A stretch of 64,000 nucleotides of DNA, taken from positions 141,804 through 205,803 of the forward strand of contig JALFUR010000004.1 of the NCBI GenBank assembly GCA_022784465.1. Reading direction: 5' to 3'. Every line of letters begins with the position of its first letter. Position 1 is the first letter of the stretch. The stretch is from Christensenella sp. (GTDB lineage: Bacteria; Bacillota; Clostridia; Christensenellales; UBA3700). This document shows positions 27,593 through 64,000 of the stretch, one piece after another. A program made the position numbers and the translations under genes. The notes under the pieces were generated by a model, which did no database searches, was not told the origin of the DNA, and worked only from the letters and a program-made list of their open reading frames with translations.

Positions 27593-29522
<1,930 letters not shown>

Positions 29523-29543
29523 ATTAAGTACCTCCATAACGTT

Positions 29544-29570
29544 TTAGCACTCAAGGTGCTCGACTGCTAA
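29544..29570. promoter_or_regulatory. CIRCE element (HrcA operator)
   Basis: TTAGCACTC-N9-GACTGCTAA; one mismatch to TTAGCACTC-N9-GAGTGCTAA; upstream of groES. Confidence 0.92.
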
Positions 29571-29695
29571 CATTTTGTATTATACACTTATGTATACGCA
29601 TTGTAAATACTTTTTTAGCAATTTTTTATTTTTTGTTTTTTGATACTTATATATATTTATATATATACATTTTTAGAACAATATAAATTAAGGTA

Positions 29696-29741
29696 AAAAA
29701 AAATAAATACACAATTTAATTAAAAAAAAGTGTATTTATTC
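29696..29741 (-). terminator. Terminator of the leu operon (minus strand)
   Basis: On minus: AATAAATACAC ... GTGTATTTATT followed by T8. Confidence 0.75.
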
Positions 29742-29760
29742 TATTATTAAATAATTTAAA

Positions 29761-30852
29761 TTATTTGCTTATAATTTCGTCGACAATTAATTTGCCCATT
29801 TCGCTACATCCAACAAGTTTTAGCTCTTGATTGTCATCGTGAGACATAATATCTTTGCATCTATATCCTTTATCTAAAACGTTAGAAACAGCTTTTTCAA
29901 TTTCGTCAGATTCTTTTGACATATTAAAACTGTATTTTAGCATCATTGCTGCAGATAAGATTGTTCCAATAGGATTTGCAATATCTTTTCCTGCAATATC
30001 TGGGGCTGAACCATGTATTGGCTCATATAAACCACATGATGAATCTCCTAAAGAAGAGGAAGGGATCATTCCAATTGAACCAGTAATCATAGATGCTTCA
30101 TCAGACAATATATCTCCAAACATGTTTTCTGTAACAATTACATCAAATTGAGAAGGATCTTTAACTATTTGCATTGCACAATTATCTACAAGCATATCTG
30201 TAAGTTCAACATCCTTATATTCTTCACTTAATCTATGCATTACGCTTTTCCATAGTCTTGAAGAATCTAATACGTTGCTTTTTTCTACAGAACATAATTT
30301 ATGATTTCTCTTTTGTGCAGTCTCAAATCCAATTCTACCAATTCTTTCAATTTCATGCTCAGCATATTTTAGTTCATCAATAGCAACTTTTTCATTGTTT
30401 TCATCAATAGTTGTATGTGTTCCAAAATAAATACCACCAATTAATTCTCTTACAATAATAAAATCTATACCTTTATTAACAATATCTGCCTTTAAAGGGG
30501 AAGATTGAGCAAGTTGAGGCCAAATTTTTGCTGGTCTATTGTTAGAATAAACTTTCATTCCAGCTCTTAATTTAAGTAGTCCTTTTTCTGGTCTTAATTC
30601 GCCAGGCATTGAATTCCACTTTGGACCACCAACAGCACCAAGAAGGACACTATCTGATTTTATACATTTATCTAACATTTTTTGTGGTAATGGTTCACCA
30701 TATTTATCTATGGCAACTCCACCCATATCTACATCATCATATGTAAATGTATAATTATATTTTTTTGCAATTGCATTTAATACATTTATTGCTTGATTAA
30801 CAATTTCTGGACCGATTCCATCACCACGTATTACTGCTATTTTTTTATCCAT
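29761..30852 (-). CDS. leuB: 3-isopropylmalate dehydrogenase
   Basis: IAVIRGDGIGPEIVNQAI, GGPKWNSMP, MFGDILSDEASMI. Confidence 0.96.
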   Translation of the reverse strand: MDKKIAVIRGDGIGPEIVNQAINVLNAIAKKYNYTFTYDDVDMGGVAIDKYGEPLPQKMLDKCIKSDSVLLGAVGGPKWNSMPGELRPEKGLLKLRAGMKVYSNNRPAKIWPQLAQSSPLKADIVNKGIDFIIVRELIGGIYFGTHTTIDENNEKVAIDELKYAEHEIERIGRIGFETAQKRNHKLCSVEKSNVLDSSRLWKSVMHRLSEEYKDVELTDMLVDNCAMQIVKDPSQFDVIVTENMFGDILSDEASMITGSIGMIPSSSLGDSSCGLYEPIHGSAPDIAGKDIANPIGTILSAAMMLKYSFNMSKESDEIEKAVSNVLDKGYRCKDIMSHDDNQELKLVGCSEMGKLIVDEIISK

Positions 30853-30862
30853 ATTCTTACCT

Positions 30863-31348
30863 CTATTTTTTCAAAGATACTAATAATCCGCCTTTATCTA
30901 TAATGTTTTGAATAAAAGGAGGGAAAGGTTGTGCTTGATAAGTTTTATTTGTTGTCTCATCAAAAATAATTCCTGTATCAAAATCAATACTTACTTTATC
31001 TCCTGCATTAATTTCTTCTGCAGCTTTTTCACATTCAATTATTGGTAAACCAATATTTATAGAATTTCTATAAAAAATTCTTGCAAAACTCTTTGAAATA
31101 ACACATCCAACACCACATGTCTTAATTGAAAGAGGAGCATGCTCTCTTGAAGATCCGCATCCAAAGTTCCAACCAGCAACAATAATGTCTCCTTTTTTAA
31201 CATTCTTTACAAACTCAGGATCAATATCTTCCATGCAATGCATTGCTAATTCTTGAGCGTTTGGAGTATTAAGATATCTAGCAGGTATAATTACGTCTGT
31301 ATCTACATCATCTTTATATTTAAATACTTTTCCAATAGTTTTTTCCAT
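30863..31348 (-). CDS. leuD: 3-isopropylmalate dehydratase small subunit
   Basis: [30 protein letters not shown]. Confidence 0.96.
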
Positions 31349-31350
31349 AA

Positions 31351-32610
31351 TTAAATCTCCTTAGGCATTGTAATATATCCAGTCAATGCTGAAGCTGCTG
31401 CAGTATATGGACTTGCTAAATATACTTCACTTTTTACATGTCCCATACGTCCAACAAAGTTACGATTTGTTGTAGCTATACATTTTTCGCCTTCTGCAAG
31501 AATTCCCATATATCCACCTAAACATGGTCCACATGTTGGAGTAGATACTACAGCTCCTGCATCAATAAAGGCAGAGATGTATCCATTTTCAATACATTTT
31601 TTATAAATTTGCATTGTTGCTGGAATAATAATACAACGAACATTATCTGCAATTTTATTTCCTTTTAAAATTGAATATGCAGCTTGCATATCTTCCATTC
31701 TACCATTTGTGCAACTTCCAATTACTACTTGATCAATCTTAATGTTAGATAAATCTTTTGCAGGTTTTGTGTTCTCAGGTAAATGTGGACATGCAACAAT
31801 TGGCTCAAGAGTAGATAAGTCTATATCATATGTTTCATCATATTCAGCATCTATATCTGCTTCATATATAACAGGCTTTCTTTCACATCTATCTTTCATA
31901 TAATCTAATGTGATTTCATCAACAGGGAAAATACCATTTTTTGCACCTGCTTCAATTGCCATATTACATATACATAATCTATCATCCATAGATAAGTTTT
32001 TTACTCCATCGCCAACAAATTCCATTGAACGATATAAAGCTCCATCAACACCAATTTTTCCAATGATATATAAGATTAAATCTTTTCCTGAACAATTGCT
32101 CTTTAATTTTCCAGTTAAATTGAACTTAATTGCACTTGGAACTTTAAACCAAGCCATTCCTGTTGCCATTCCTGCAGCCATATCTGTTGATCCTACACCT
32201 GTTGAAAAAGCACCAAGCGCTCCATATGTACAAGTGTGGCTGTCTGCACCAATTATGCAATCTCCTGCAGTTACAACGCCTTGCTCAGGTAAAAGAGCAT
32301 GTTCAATACCCATTTTTCCAACATCATAAAAATGGCTTACACAATGTTCACATGCAAAGTTTCTACATGTTTTAGATTGCTCAGCTGCTTTAATATCTTT
32401 GTTTGGAACAAAGTGGTCTAGAACAATAGCAATTCTATCTTTATCAAAAACTGAATCAAATCCAGCTTTTTTAAATTCATTAATTGCAACTGGAGTTGTT
32501 ATGTCATTTCCTAAAATTATATCTAATTTTGCATTTATTAGTTGTCCTGCTACAACTTTATCTAGTCCAGCGTGAGCAGCTAATATTTTTTGAGTCATAG
32601 TCATTCCCAT
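31351..32610 (-). CDS. leuC: 3-isopropylmalate dehydratase large subunit
   Basis: [44 protein letters not shown]. Confidence 0.96.
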
Positions 32611-32622
32611 GTTCTTGACCTC

Positions 32623-34278
32623 CTATTTATTGTTAAATGCGCTTGTTAGGGCAGATACAGAAGCTTTAATAATATCTGTGTTAATTCCTGCACCCCAGCT
32701 CATATGACCATCTGGCCATTCAATACCAATATAGGCAACAGCAGAAGAGCCAGAACCACTATTTTGCATACTGTGTTCTGTGTATACTTTTAATTTGTAA
32801 ACTTGCTTTGTCAAAGACTTAATTGCGTTAGATACAGCATCTAATGAACCGTTACCATTAATGTTTATCATTCTTGTTGTTCCATTTAATGTAACAGCAA
32901 TATCTGCATTAACTCCATCTTCTTTTTGATGGAAATGCATTTCATCAATAGAAAGAGGGGAACTTCTATCAAAATATGTTGTTTTAAATATGTCTAATAC
33001 TTCAGCAACTTTCAACTCTTTATGTTCATGGTCAGATATACTCTTGCATAAATAACTTAAATGTTCTCTCATTTGAGGAGGTAATACATATCCATATGTT
33101 TGTTCAAGTAAATATCCAATTCCACCTTTTCCACTTTGTGAATTTACACGAATAACATCGGCATCATATGTTCTATGAATGTCTTTTGGATCAATTGGAA
33201 TATAAGGAACATTCCAAATTGTTGAATGTTTTTCTTCTTTGTATTTCATTCCTTTTGCAATAGCGTCTTGGTGACTTCCAGAGAAAGCTGCAAATACCAA
33301 AGAGCCAGCATAAGGAGATCTTTCATGAACGTGCATTCTTGTACATTTTTCATAAGTAGAAACAAGTTCAGGCATATTTGAAAAATCTAACTTTGGATCT
33401 ATACCATGTGAGTACATATTCATAGCTAATGTTACAACGTCAACATTTCCTGTACGTTCACCATTACCAAATAATGTTCCTTCAACTCTATCTGCACCTG
33501 CAAGCAATCCTAATTCAGCATCAGCAACACCTGTGCCTCTATCGTTATGAGGGTGAAGTGAAATTGTAACAAATTCACGATATTTAATATTTTTATGAAT
33601 ATATTCAACTTGGCTTGCAACAATATGAGGCATACTCATTTCTACAGTTACAGGTAAGTTGATAATTACATTGTTATCTTTAGAAGGCTCTAATACATCC
33701 AAAACAGCATTACATACTTCAAGAGCATATTCTGGTTCAGTTCCAGTAAAACTTTCTGGAGAATATTCAAATCTAAAGTTGCCTTCATATTCACTTGCAA
33801 GTTGTTTTACAAGTTTTGCTCCTTCTACAGCAATTTTCTTGATTTCTTCTTTAGACTTTTTAAATACTTGCTCTCTTTGTGCAACACTTACAGAATTGTA
33901 AAAATGTATAATTGCACTTGGGGCACCTTTACATGCATCAAAAGTCTTTCTAATTATGTGTTCACGACATTGTGTTAATACTTGAACTGAAACATCATTT
34001 GGAATCATGTTCTTTTCAATTAATGTACGTAAAAATTCATATTCAGTTTCAGATGCAGCAGGGAAGCCTACTTCAATTTCTTTAAAGCCTACTTTTAATA
34101 ACATTTTGTAGAACTCTAATTTTTCTTCCAAACTCATTGGAATAACTAAACTTTGATTTCCATCTCTTAAATCAACACTACACCATTGAGGTGCTTTTTC
34201 TATATGATCTTTTTTAACCCAATCATATTCCATTTTTGGTGGTAAATAGTAACCAATTTTATATTTTTTATTATCCAT
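32623..34278 (-). CDS. leuA: 2-isopropylmalate synthase, long (LeuA2/yeast-like) type
   Basis: WCSVDLRDGNQSLVIPM, SLHPHNDRGTGVADAELGLLAGADRVEGTLFGNGERTGN. Confidence 0.95.
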   Translation of the reverse strand: MDNKKYKIGYYLPPKMEYDWVKKDHIEKAPQWCSVDLRDGNQSLVIPMSLEEKLEFYKMLLKVGFKEIEVGFPAASETEYEFLRTLIEKNMIPNDVSVQVLTQCREHIIRKTFDACKGAPSAIIHFYNSVSVAQREQVFKKSKEEIKKIAVEGAKLVKQLASEYEGNFRFEYSPESFTGTEPEYALEVCNAVLDVLEPSKDNNVIINLPVTVEMSMPHIVASQVEYIHKNIKYREFVTISLHPHNDRGTGVADAELGLLAGADRVEGTLFGNGERTGNVDVVTLAMNMYSHGIDPKLDFSNMPELVSTYEKCTRMHVHERSPYAGSLVFAAFSGSHQDAIAKGMKYKEEKHSTIWNVPYIPIDPKDIHRTYDADVIRVNSQSGKGGIGYLLEQTYGYVLPPQMREHLSYLCKSISDHEHKELKVAEVLDIFKTTYFDRSSPLSIDEMHFHQKEDGVNADIAVTLNGTTRMININGNGSLDAVSNAIKSLTKQVYKLKVYTEHSMQNSGSGSSAVAYIGIEWPDGHMSWGAGINTDIIKASVSALTSAFNNK

Positions 34279-34301
34279 TATATTTCTATCCTTTTTTTTT
34301 C

Positions 34302-34679
34302 TTATATTGTAGCGATGACTTCTACTTCTACAAGAACTCCTTTAGGTAATTCCTTTACAGCTACGCATGAACGTGCTGGCTTTGAAGTGAAGTATTTTCC
34401 GTATATTTCATTAAAAGCACTAAAATCACTCATGTTTTGGAGGTAACATACAGTTTTAACTGCATTTGAGAGTGATGTTCCAGCTGCAATCAGGATGTTA
34501 GATAGATTTTTACATACTTGCTCTGTTTGAGCTTCGATGGTTTTTGCCTCAACTAAACCATTTTCTGGGTTGATGGCAATTTGTCCAGACGTAAATACCA
34601 TATTGTTTATAACAATTGCTTGAGAATATGGACCAATTGCATCTGGGGCTTGTTTTGTGTAAATAATTTTTTTGTCCAT
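34302..34679 (-). CDS. ridA: RidA family 2-iminobutanoate/2-iminopropanoate deaminase
   Basis: QAPDAIGPYSQAIVINNMVFTSGQIAINPENG. Confidence 0.95.
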   Translation of the reverse strand: MDKKIIYTKQAPDAIGPYSQAIVINNMVFTSGQIAINPENGLVEAKTIEAQTEQVCKNLSNILIAAGTSLSNAVKTVCYLQNMSDFSAFNEIYGKYFTSKPARSCVAVKELPKGVLVEVEVIATI

Positions 34680-34692
34680 TATTATTCTCCTT

Positions 34693-35889
34693 CTATTTTT
34701 TTATAGTGAATCCACTATTTCTTAATGCGTTTTCAATTTCTTGTACATGCTCGTAATTTCTTGTTTCTACAGAAATACGTAAATAGCATCCATTGATACT
34801 TGCTGTATCTCCAGATCTTTCATGATGTACAGATGTTACGTTTCCACCACATTCAGCAATGATTTTTGATACATCTTGTAATTGTCCTGGCTTGTCTACA
34901 AGTTCAATTAAAAGACTAGTTTTTCTACCAGATTTTTGTAGACCTCTTTCAATAACTCTAGATAATATTGAAACGTCAATATTACCACCAGATACAACAG
35001 CAACAACTTTTTTGCCTTTTGTAGGGAATTTATTAAACATGGCAGCAGCAACGGCAACAGCACCAGCTCCTTCAGCTACCATCTTTTGTTTTTCTATTAA
35101 TGCCAAAATTGCAGCAGCAATTTCATCTTCTGTTACTAAAGCAATTTCATCAACATATTCATTTATAATTTCAAATGTCTTTTCTCCTGGAGTTTTTACA
35201 GCAATACCATCAGCAATTGTAGATACGCTTGATAGATGTTCAATCTTTCCATCTTTAATTGAATTGTACATACTTGGCGCACCTAATGCTTGTACTCCAT
35301 AAACTTTAATTGAAGGGCGTAATTTCTTAACTGCATATGCAATACCAGCAATTAATCCGCCTCCACCAATTGGAACAATGATTGCATCAATGTCTGATAA
35401 TTCTTCAAGAATTTCTAGAGCAATAGTTCCTTGTCCAGCGATAACGTCATCATCGTCAAATGGATGAACAAATGTATATCCTTCTGAATCTCTTAATTGT
35501 AAAGCTTTATTATATGCATCATCATATACTCCTGGAACTAAAACAATTTCAGCTCCATATGATTTTGTTGCTTCAATTTTAGAAATAGGTGCACTATCTG
35601 GCAAACATACTACGGCTTTAATTCCAGCCTTTTGTGCAGCAAGAGCAACACCTTGAGCATGGTTTCCAGCAGAGCAGGCTATAACACCTCTTTTTTTCTC
35701 TTCATCTGATAAGTTTGCGATTTTAAATCCTGAACCACGTAATTTAAAAGAACCAGTATTTTGTAGACATTCTGGTTTTAGATAAAGTGTACATTCGTCT
35801 GTAATACCAGGTGCTTTTACAACGATGGTTTTACGAACTACATCTTTTAAAACTTCTTTCGCTTGATATATTTTTTCTAAGGATATCAT
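34693..35889 (-). CDS. ilvA: Threonine ammonia-lyase
   Basis: LKPECLQNTGSFKLRGS, SAGNHAQGVALAA, IGGGGLIAGIA, C-terminal ACT domain; start MISLEKIYQ preferred. Confidence 0.93.
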   Translation of the reverse strand: MISLEKIYQAKEVLKDVVRKTIVVKAPGITDECTLYLKPECLQNTGSFKLRGSGFKIANLSDEEKKRGVIACSAGNHAQGVALAAQKAGIKAVVCLPDSAPISKIEATKSYGAEIVLVPGVYDDAYNKALQLRDSEGYTFVHPFDDDDVIAGQGTIALEILEELSDIDAIIVPIGGGGLIAGIAYAVKKLRPSIKVYGVQALGAPSMYNSIKDGKIEHLSSVSTIADGIAVKTPGEKTFEIINEYVDEIALVTEDEIAAAILALIEKQKMVAEGAGAVAVAAAMFNKFPTKGKKVVAVVSGGNIDVSILSRVIERGLQKSGRKTSLLIELVDKPGQLQDVSKIIAECGGNVTSVHHERSGDTASINGCYLRISVETRNYEHVQEIENALRNSGFTIKK

Positions 35890-36140
35890 TTTTTTATTTA
35901 ACCTCTTTGTTAACATAAATATTAATATATTTATATAGTTTAATTACTTATATTAATAATGTCAAGCAATGAAATAAAATATTGTAAAATTCCTTATTTT
36001 CAAGCAATTAGATAATTAAAATCAATTTTTCTTAATAAACTTTTATCTTCACTATTTAAGTAAAAAATAAGTGCTATAACGATTGTTTTTTTATCTTAAT
36101 TTATGTATTATGAGTATGAGTTTAATTAGAGGTGATACTT

Positions 36141-61834: not shown

Positions 61835-62527
61835 ATGAAGATTTTTGCAATAAGCGATTTACATTTATCTAAAGTTGTGAATAAACCAATGTATATCTTT
61901 GGAGATAGTTGGTCTAATTATTGGGATATAATTAGACAAGATTGGAGAAATAAAGTTAGCGATGAAGATGTTGTACTTGTTGCAGGAGATGTTTCATGGG
62001 GTTTAAATTTTGAGGAAGCAAAACCAGATATTGATGAAATTGCAGAGCTTCCTGGTCAAATAGTAATTTGTAAAGGTAACCATGATTATTGGTGGGGAAC
62101 TATGAAAAAAATGCAATCTTTCTTGCCTGAAAATATTCATGCTTTACATAACAATTGTTTACGATTTGGAGATGTTCTTATCTGTGGAACAAGATTATGG
62201 TCTATAGGGCCAACTAATACAGATGAGGATAATAAGATTCTTTATGGCCATGAAATGAAAAGACTAAAGAATTCGTTAGAAGCAATGGAGAAGGAAAGAA
62301 AACAAACAGATACTGTTATTTGTATGCTCCATTTTCCTCCATTTGATTTTACTCAAAAGGAAAACGATTTTACAGCTTTGTTTCATGAACATGGGATAAA
62401 AAAAGTGGTTTATGGACATTTACATGGTGATGTATGTAGAGCAGATCCATACAAAAAAATTAACGGAATAGAATATTATTTAACTGCTTGCGATCAGGTA
62501 TGTAATACTCTAGTTCAAATATTATAA
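61835..62527 (+). CDS. Metallophosphoesterase
   Basis: MKIFAISDLHLS, VLVAGDVSWG, VICKGNHDYWWG, VVYGHLHGD. Confidence 0.93.
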   Translation: MKIFAISDLHLSKVVNKPMYIFGDSWSNYWDIIRQDWRNKVSDEDVVLVAGDVSWGLNFEEAKPDIDEIAELPGQIVICKGNHDYWWGTMKKMQSFLPENIHALHNNCLRFGDVLICGTRLWSIGPTNTDEDNKILYGHEMKRLKNSLEAMEKERKQTDTVICMLHFPPFDFTQKENDFTALFHEHGIKKVVYGHLHGDVCRADPYKKINGIEYYLTACDQVCNTLVQIL

Positions 62528-62546: not shown

Positions 62547-62573
62547 TAGCACCCGAAAAAGGGTGCTATTTTT
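62547..62573 (+). terminator. Terminator after metallophosphoesterase
   Basis: TAGCACCC gaaaaa GGGTGCTA followed by T5. Confidence 0.9.
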
Positions 62574-62599: not shown

Positions 62600-62774
62600 T
62601 TTTCCATTTTTTTCCACTTTTGACCAAAATTGTTAAATTGTGGAAATGTTGATAACTTTGTGGATAACTCAAATTTAGGGTAAAAAAGTGTTAAAATTTT
62701 CAAATAATCGACACATAATGCATATTTTTGATTAAAACAAAAAATTTTACATATTGGTGGAAAAAAATGGAAAA
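62600..62774. repeat. Perfect 18-bp inverted pair GTGGAAAAAAATGGAAAA
   Basis: Plus-strand copy 62757-62774; minus-strand copy 62617-62600. Confidence 0.85.
62659..62667 (-). promoter_or_regulatory. Perfect DnaA box, with one-mismatch copy at 62648-62656
   Basis: TGTGGATAA at 62659; TGTTGATAA at 62648. Confidence 0.6.
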
Positions 62775-62779
62775 AAATC

Positions 62780-62808
62780 TTGACAATGATATGTGTGCAT
62801 TATATAAT
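62780..62808 (+). promoter_or_regulatory. Consensus SigA promoter of mraZ
   Basis: TTGACA-17-TATAAT, perfect match. Confidence 0.9.
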
Positions 62809-62837: not shown

Positions 62838-63341
62838 ATGGGCTATTTGTTTTCAGGCAGTGTAGAATTAACAGCTGACGATAAAAATCGTTTTAGATTC
62901 CCTGCAAAATATAAAGATGCTTATTTATCTTATGACGCTTCTAACGAATTAGTTATAGAAGATGTTTATGTTTTAAAAATGCCTCATACCAACTTCTTAA
63001 CAGTTATGCCTAAAAAGGTTGCAGAATCTTTCATTAGACAAATGCAAAAACTTTTATACATTAACGAAACTAGAGATACAAGAATTGCTAAATATTGCAT
63101 TTCGCATATTGAACCATGTAAGGTTGATTCTCAAGGAAGATTTGTTATTTCTCAAAGACAAAAGGGTAGTTTAATACTTGATAAAGAAATTGTAATGGTT
63201 GGAATGGGAAACCAAATTGAAATCTGGGATAAGAAAGTTTATGAAGCTTCAATGGCTTCTGCTGAAGAAGAATTAAGCGCTTCATTTGATGAATCACAAG
63301 AAAGATCAATTATTGATAACATGGTAATAGGTATTGAGTAG
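62838..63341 (+). CDS. mraZ: Transcriptional regulator MraZ
   Basis: [41 protein letters not shown]; followed by rsmH. Confidence 0.93.
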
Positions 63342-63342
63342 A

Positions 63343-64000
63343 ATGGAATTTAAACATATTCCGGTGCTATTAAATGAATGCATTGAAGGGTTAGATATTA
63401 AGCCAGAAGGAATATATGTTGATTGCACATTAGGCGGAGCTGGCCATTCTAGTAAGATAGTAGAAAAATTAACAACAGGAAAATTGATTGCAGTAGATAA
63501 AGATGAAGATGCTTTAAAAGCTGCTAAAGAAAGATTAAAAGAATATAGTGATAAAATTATCTTTATTCATGATGATTTTAAAAACACTATTATGAACCTT
63601 GACAAAATCGGTATAGAAAAAGTTGATGGAATACTAATAGATTTAGGAGTTTCATCATATCAATTGGATAATGCAGAACGTGGCTTTTCTTATAATCAAG
63701 ATGCTAGATTAGATATGAGAATGGATCAAAGCCAATCTCTTTCAGCATACGAAGTTGTAAACAATTATTCAGAAAAAGAAATATCAGATATCCTTTGGAT
63801 GTATGGTGAAGAAAAACTTTCAAGAAAGATTGCATATAATATTGTAAAAAATAGAGAAAAAGCACCAATTGAAACAACATTGCAATTAGCAGAAATAATT
63901 ATTAATTCATATCCTGCAAAATTGAGATGGAAAGGTGGAAATCCATGTAAAAGATCTTTTCAAGCCATTCGCATAGAAGTAAATGGAGAATTGAGAGGAT
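63343..64000 (+). CDS. rsmH: 16S rRNA (cytosine-1402-N4)-methyltransferase, truncated by window edge
   Basis: [73 protein letters not shown]; open to window end. Confidence 0.96.

Follow-up and report, generated by a model that had tools for sequence, protein, structure and literature searches.

The control region of mraZ in the window (the whole stretch of 64,000 nucleotides that was analysed) carries two inverted copies of an 18-bp array resembling MraZ boxes, with predicted DnaA boxes between them. This raises the question whether both copies are operators of one regulator and whether replication-initiator binding sites are part of the same regulatory unit.

Gene Context and Comparative Data Set

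Contig C13, to which the window belongs, is part of the 1.59-Mb assembly of a Christensenellales bacterium. The gene mraZ (62838-63341, plus strand) was assigned by a PF02381 match above the cut-off and by matches to the MraZ structures PDB 1n0e, 9qlg, 9sx6 and 9qlr. It is followed by rsmH (mraW; 63343-63999, plus strand; TIGR00006, 283 bits), the second gene of the operon, which is cut by the window end. This order, with a MraZ-family protein encoded first and rsmH next, is as expected of a mraZ operon. A 310-bp intergenic region separates mraZ from a co-directional metallophosphoesterase gene (61835-62527), whose intrinsic terminator was found on the plus strand at 62547-62568 (8-pair stem plus U-run). 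Rfam gave no match in the mraZ upstream region.

For comparison 46 genomes of the family were available, 41 of which encode a PF02381 protein; several upstream regions are truncated in metagenome assemblies. The window's own genus (g1) is represented by five genomes, three with an intact mraZ upstream region and two in which this region ends at a contig end. Among the g1 species the MraZ proteins are 44-50% identical.

Promoter and Proximal MraZ-Box Array

The mraZ operon promoter, TTGACA-17-TATAAT (62780-62808, plus strand), matches the consensus in 12 of 12 positions (-35 TTGACA at 62780-62785, spacer of 17 bp, -10 TATAAT at 62803-62808) and is conserved in relatives. Upstream of it the proximal array (62757-62774, plus strand) consists of two predicted MraZ boxes with a 10-bp period, TGG starting at 62758 and 62768, and its 18 bp are invariant in g1. 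The preliminary description had listed these elements together with a perfect inverted copy, and all of them were recovered at the same positions: GTGGAAAAAAATGGAAAA occurs exactly at 62757-62774 (plus strand) and, reverse-complemented, at 62600-62617 (minus strand), and the perfect match extends no further on either side. A genome-wide pattern search of the 1.59-Mb assembly yielded no exact copy besides these two; the pattern GTGGAAAN4TGGAAAA at zero mismatches was likewise restricted to the two arrays.

Across the family, 38 of the 39 promoters with enough sequence carry TGG- or GGG-N7-TGG beside TTGACA, and of 54 order-level regions outside the family, 48 have AAAGTGG-type arrays at the promoter. 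For 12 promoters of g1 and a second genus, g6, which were analysed in detail, the second TGG lies 12-13 bp or 23 bp before the -35 element, the longer distance being one helical turn beyond the shorter. Tandem boxes with a 10-bp period are thus present at the mraZ promoter and kept in relatives, as would be expected of MraZ operators. Because the array is kept at the -35 element across the family, the earlier suggestion that MraZ regulates its own synthesis through the proximal copy appears well supported. Just upstream of the proximal array, genera g2, g3 and g5 possess a LexA-like site (CGAACAAGTGTTTGC / CGAACATATGTGTT; e.g., L023, L024, L028), which suggests that the division operon of these genera receives an SOS input; this site was not seen in the window.

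The Distal Inverted Array

The distal array (62600-62617, minus strand) is the exact reverse complement of the proximal one and comprises two boxes with a 10-bp period. In this part of the region three CCA stand in 10-bp register (62604, 62614, 62624), one beyond those described before; the possible third box, read from the sequence as TGG at 62624-62626 on the minus strand, is not clearly conserved. When the A-rich 310-bp intergenic region was dinucleotide-shuffled 3000 times, inverted repeats of at least 18 bp arose in 33 of the shuffles (~1%); a few other tiles of the window also reach 18-bp inverted repeats. The perfect 18-bp repeat by itself is only mildly unusual, and it is considered significant because it is conserved in relatives, not on account of the repeat alone.

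This conservation was determined by scanning with a leave-one-out position weight matrix derived from the proximal arrays, with p-values calculated per region against shuffled DNA. On the minus strand a distal array was detected at p ≤ 0.01 in every testable species, three of g1 and nine of g6 (p ≤ 0.007 for each of the latter), most at the floor of 0.003, whereas plus-strand matches at p ≤ 0.01 occurred in just one of three and one of nine species. The Fisher-combined minus-strand p-values are 2e-5 for g1 and 1e-13 for g6, the species being related and the per-genome p-values not independent. Wherever the upstream gene is visible in g1 and g6, the distal array is situated in non-coding DNA. 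A second conserved site, very probably for the same protein, is found in a fixed, inverted orientation in 12 of 12 species. The distal array also shares the first-box variant of the proximal array of its genus in 12 of 12 cases, GTGG in g1 and GGG in g6 (Fisher p 0.005 with phylogeny ignored): both arrays read GGG-N7-TGG in g6, the distal one as TTTGGGAAAATTTTGGAAAA or similar, versus TGG-N7-TGG in the window's genus. The outcome that would have spoken against a paired function, conservation of the proximal copy only, is not the case, as the distal copy is kept in both genera and co-changed with its partner. The two sites seem to have changed together, which is what recognition of both by a single protein would predict, and on these grounds both arrays are very probably MraZ sites.

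The three-region alignment of g1 revealed conserved islands at the inverted distal array (TCCAC-type boxes), GTKGATAACTWTGTGGATAACTC (the DnaA tandem described below), ATCGACACATAA, the proximal array and the promoter. The array-to-array spacing amounts to 154-156 bp in all three species and holds even though an insertion of 10 bp and a deletion of 9 bp distinguish the window from G001 in the stretch between the arrays. In g6 it ranges from 151 to 183 bp, and across genera (139-185 bp) no common helical phase of the spacing was seen; for this reason a rigid loop is not required. The element ATCGACACATAATGCAT (62707-62723, plus strand; TCGACACATAATGCAT at 62708-62723), of which 12 bp are invariant in the three g1 species, has one exact copy in its own genome. 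A similar element, TCGACNNATAAYGCAT, is present in g6; in the mraZ regions of g1 and g6 (window, L006, L008, L013, L015, L016) the position of this conserved element relative to the arrays varies. An AT-rich palindrome (TTATATACATAGTATATAATATT and variants) lies between the distal and proximal arrays in g6 (L010, L013, L015, L019).

In genera g2 and g5 the two-box distal array is mostly missing, its place being taken by a compact inverted element, [AT]GGGA-N4-T[AT]TCC[AC]C ([AT]GGGANNNNT[AT]TCC[AC]C), at about -220 to -268 of their mraZ regions (L022-L039). Its distance to the proximal array is 139 bp in four g2 species, 153-154 bp in six g5 species and greater in others; almost no such elements are expected from shuffles. 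Nearly the whole family thus appears to have, in several forms, an inverted GTGGA box some 140-185 bp upstream. Outside the family, few species have a distal inverted array in non-coding DNA (one of family f3 and one of f15). In family f13 the apparent distal-array signal (Fisher p 1e-6) falls within the upstream ORF and was discarded as an artefact of its coding sequence.

DnaA Boxes Between the Arrays

Three predicted DnaA boxes form a group on the minus strand (62639-62667), recognized by their match to the DnaA consensus TTATCCACA: a weak box TGTGGAAAT at 62639-62647, a one-mismatch box TGTTGATAA at 62647-62655 and an exact box TGTGGATAA at 62659-62667, which reads TTATCCACA on the minus strand. 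The position of the exact box agrees with the preliminary description; the one-mismatch copy exists as well, one base away from the 62648-62656 given there. Together TGTTGATAA and TGTGGATAA constitute a tandem with 12-bp spacing, lying between the two MraZ arrays about 110 bp from the -35 element.

Exact TTATCCACA was counted 26 times in the genome versus 23 times for a reversed-pattern control, and 15 of the 18 isolated sites that were fetched are coding; as the count is near that of the control, single boxes are regarded as background. The tandem TTATNCACA-12-bp pair, by comparison, occurs at only three places of the genome, upstream of cwlD, purE and mraZ, and the reversed-pattern control of the strict tandem gave 0 matches in all 46 family genomes. 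At mraZ the three g1 species with a testable region all have the tandem, as does G031 of g6; it is absent from most g6, g2 and g3 mraZ regions and thus sporadic beyond the window's genus. Exact DnaA boxes were found in 10 of 32 mraZ regions of the family versus 0.005 expected per region, including those of g4, g2 and four g5 species. Clustered consensus boxes that are rare in the genome and conserved (3/3 in g1) are what characterizes a DnaA-regulated promoter, and the conservation of the DnaA boxes, which the preliminary description had left to be checked, is confirmed for the genus. The chances that DnaA has a regulatory role at mraZ appear evenly balanced from this analysis.

The tandem or triple TTATCCACA sites at cwlD and purE (20/12-bp or 12-bp spacing) recur through the family. 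In the present genome they lie at 2781-2821 of the window (purE) and, upstream of the cwlD-type amidase gene, at G000:C11:308542-308674 (L051). Single TTATCCACA cases were noted at purL, an NCS2-type permease and the purM/purN cluster. On the basis of these sites, genes of purine synthesis and cell-wall hydrolysis might belong to a DnaA regulon.

A replication origin at mraZ was also considered and rejected. GC skew is positive around mraZ up to the window end with no reversal within the window, and dnaA-dnaN and rpmH-rnpA are encoded on another contig, C15; the origin probably lies elsewhere. Another group of boxes, of the TTATTCACA type, is located in the dnaA-dnaN gap on C15. Around 69000-89000 of that contig (G000:C15) a low-GC, skew-neutral section contains dnaA, with divergent recF and dnaN, and rpmH-rnpA about 9 kb away; this is likely the origin region, with TTATTCACA-type boxes. 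The order rpmH-rnpA-yidD-yidC is a classic origin neighbourhood, and in G002 a tandem TTATCCACA pair stands in front of it. Farther from mraZ, at about 28000-36000, the GC skew, uniformly positive in the rest of the window, is reversed, which points to an inverted or acquired segment.

Discussion

The mraZ promoter of B. cenocepacia contains four 7-nt repeats with 3-nt spacers, and MraZ is described as an octameric ring (PMC7761207). Like the MraZ-box arrays of E. coli, Mollicutes and Burkholderia cenocepacia, the present locus has mraZ first with rsmH, and G-rich boxes per 10 bp at the promoter. Unlike these, its array is positioned upstream of the -35 element and not on the start site, and it has a conserved second inverted array about 155 bp upstream; the papers found mention no distal array. 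The lac, gal and ara promoters are looping promoters with auxiliary operators. Like them, the mraZ region would have a pair of inverted operators bound by a single oligomeric regulator and separated by about 150 bp around the promoter-upstream region; they differ in that the spacing here follows no helical phase across genera and that no paper on looping by MraZ was found. In an incomplete literature collection, nothing on point linked MraZ to DnaA or to looping.

B. subtilis DnaA-box clusters, as well as datA and DARS of E. coli, represent few intergenic multi-box clusters per genome. The clusters reported here are likewise few and intergenic, located at purE, cwlD and mraZ instead (for datA and DARS see PMC4585315). 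DnaA-regulated division genes are exemplified by the ftsL promoter region of B. subtilis and ftsZ of C. crescentus (reviewed in PMC8203912). As in these cases DnaA boxes lie upstream of a division operon, whereas the boxes predicted here are placed between two MraZ arrays at mraZ itself.

From the known biology of MraZ (PMC7761207) we infer that the protein, as a ring-shaped oligomer, would bind the proximal array beside the -35 element and repress the mraZ-rsmH division/cell-wall operon. The anatomy of the region suggests that the distal inverted array about 155 bp upstream may serve MraZ as an auxiliary operator; both arrays would probably be held by a single ring or by two that interact, and the resulting DNA loop would strengthen repression. 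DnaA on the tandem boxes inside this loop would probably alter the loop or the promoter and so couple expression to replication status, a modulation proposed because of the ftsL precedent (PMC8203912). Autorepression from the proximal operator, strengthened by bridging or looping to the distal one and with an input of DnaA, is the reading that we favour slightly. The bridging of the two arrays by MraZ, judged on its own, is plausible and a little short of probable. A stricter version, in which MraZ rings bridge the inverted operators as a repression loop that DnaA opens or locks from inside, gating the division genes directly, is unlikely.

Other explanations of the inverted pair start from the same observations. 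A chance origin of the inverted 18-mer in A-rich DNA agrees with the roughly 1% of shuffles containing an inverted repeat of at least 18 bp, but it is contradicted by the conservation of the distal copy amid diverged flanks and by its co-change with the proximal array, and its probability is negligible. The orientation of the distal array, pointing away from mraZ, would suit an operator of a divergent (antisense) MraZ-controlled promoter; in the 12 genomes, however, no promoter score on the distal side is clearly above shuffles, whereas on the proximal side every genome reaches 10-12 of 12, and the upstream gene is co-directional wherever clearly visible in g1 and g6, which makes this explanation very improbable. 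Both arrays might also be MraZ sites without looping, the distal one storing or nucleating rings or reflecting general binding while the proximal one alone controls transcription. The variable spacing between genera (139-185 bp, without common helical phase) and the sufficiency of arrays near the -35 element in most other families of the order speak for this, yet the inverted orientation fixed in 12 of 12 g1 and g6 species and the constant 154-156 bp in g1 despite compensating indels do not, and we regard it as rather unlikely.

The tandem TTATCCACA boxes can be viewed independently of the arrays. Placed by chance in a long mraZ intergenic region, they might merely titrate or reactivate DnaA, with no regulation of mraZ; the genome has three multi-box TTATCCACA clusters (cwlD, purE, mraZ) besides the variant boxes of the dnaA-dnaN gap, and the cluster position at mraZ is mostly genus-specific. 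Against this stand the location of the tandem, flanked by a conserved MraZ array on either side and some 110 bp away from the -35 element, and the precedent of DnaA binding in the ftsL promoter region of a division operon in B. subtilis (PMC8203912), so that titration is somewhat unlikely. Binding of a regulator other than DnaA, for instance a purine-metabolism regulator with mraZ among its targets, would account for the tandem or triple boxes (20/12-bp) at purE and the single ones at purL, the NCS2-type permease and the purM/purN cluster. It is improbable, given that TTATCCACA is the DnaA consensus, that a tandem pair precedes rpmH-rnpA-yidD-yidC, an origin neighbourhood, in G002 and that cwlD is not a purine gene.

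For autorepression with a distal auxiliary operator and DnaA input, the significance is twofold. The coupling of replication and division in Gram-positive bacteria is still open, and tandem DnaA boxes between two MraZ operators represent a compact candidate for it. A conserved distal inverted operator would moreover point to a possible role in DNA bridging for MraZ, a protein known from contiguous arrays.
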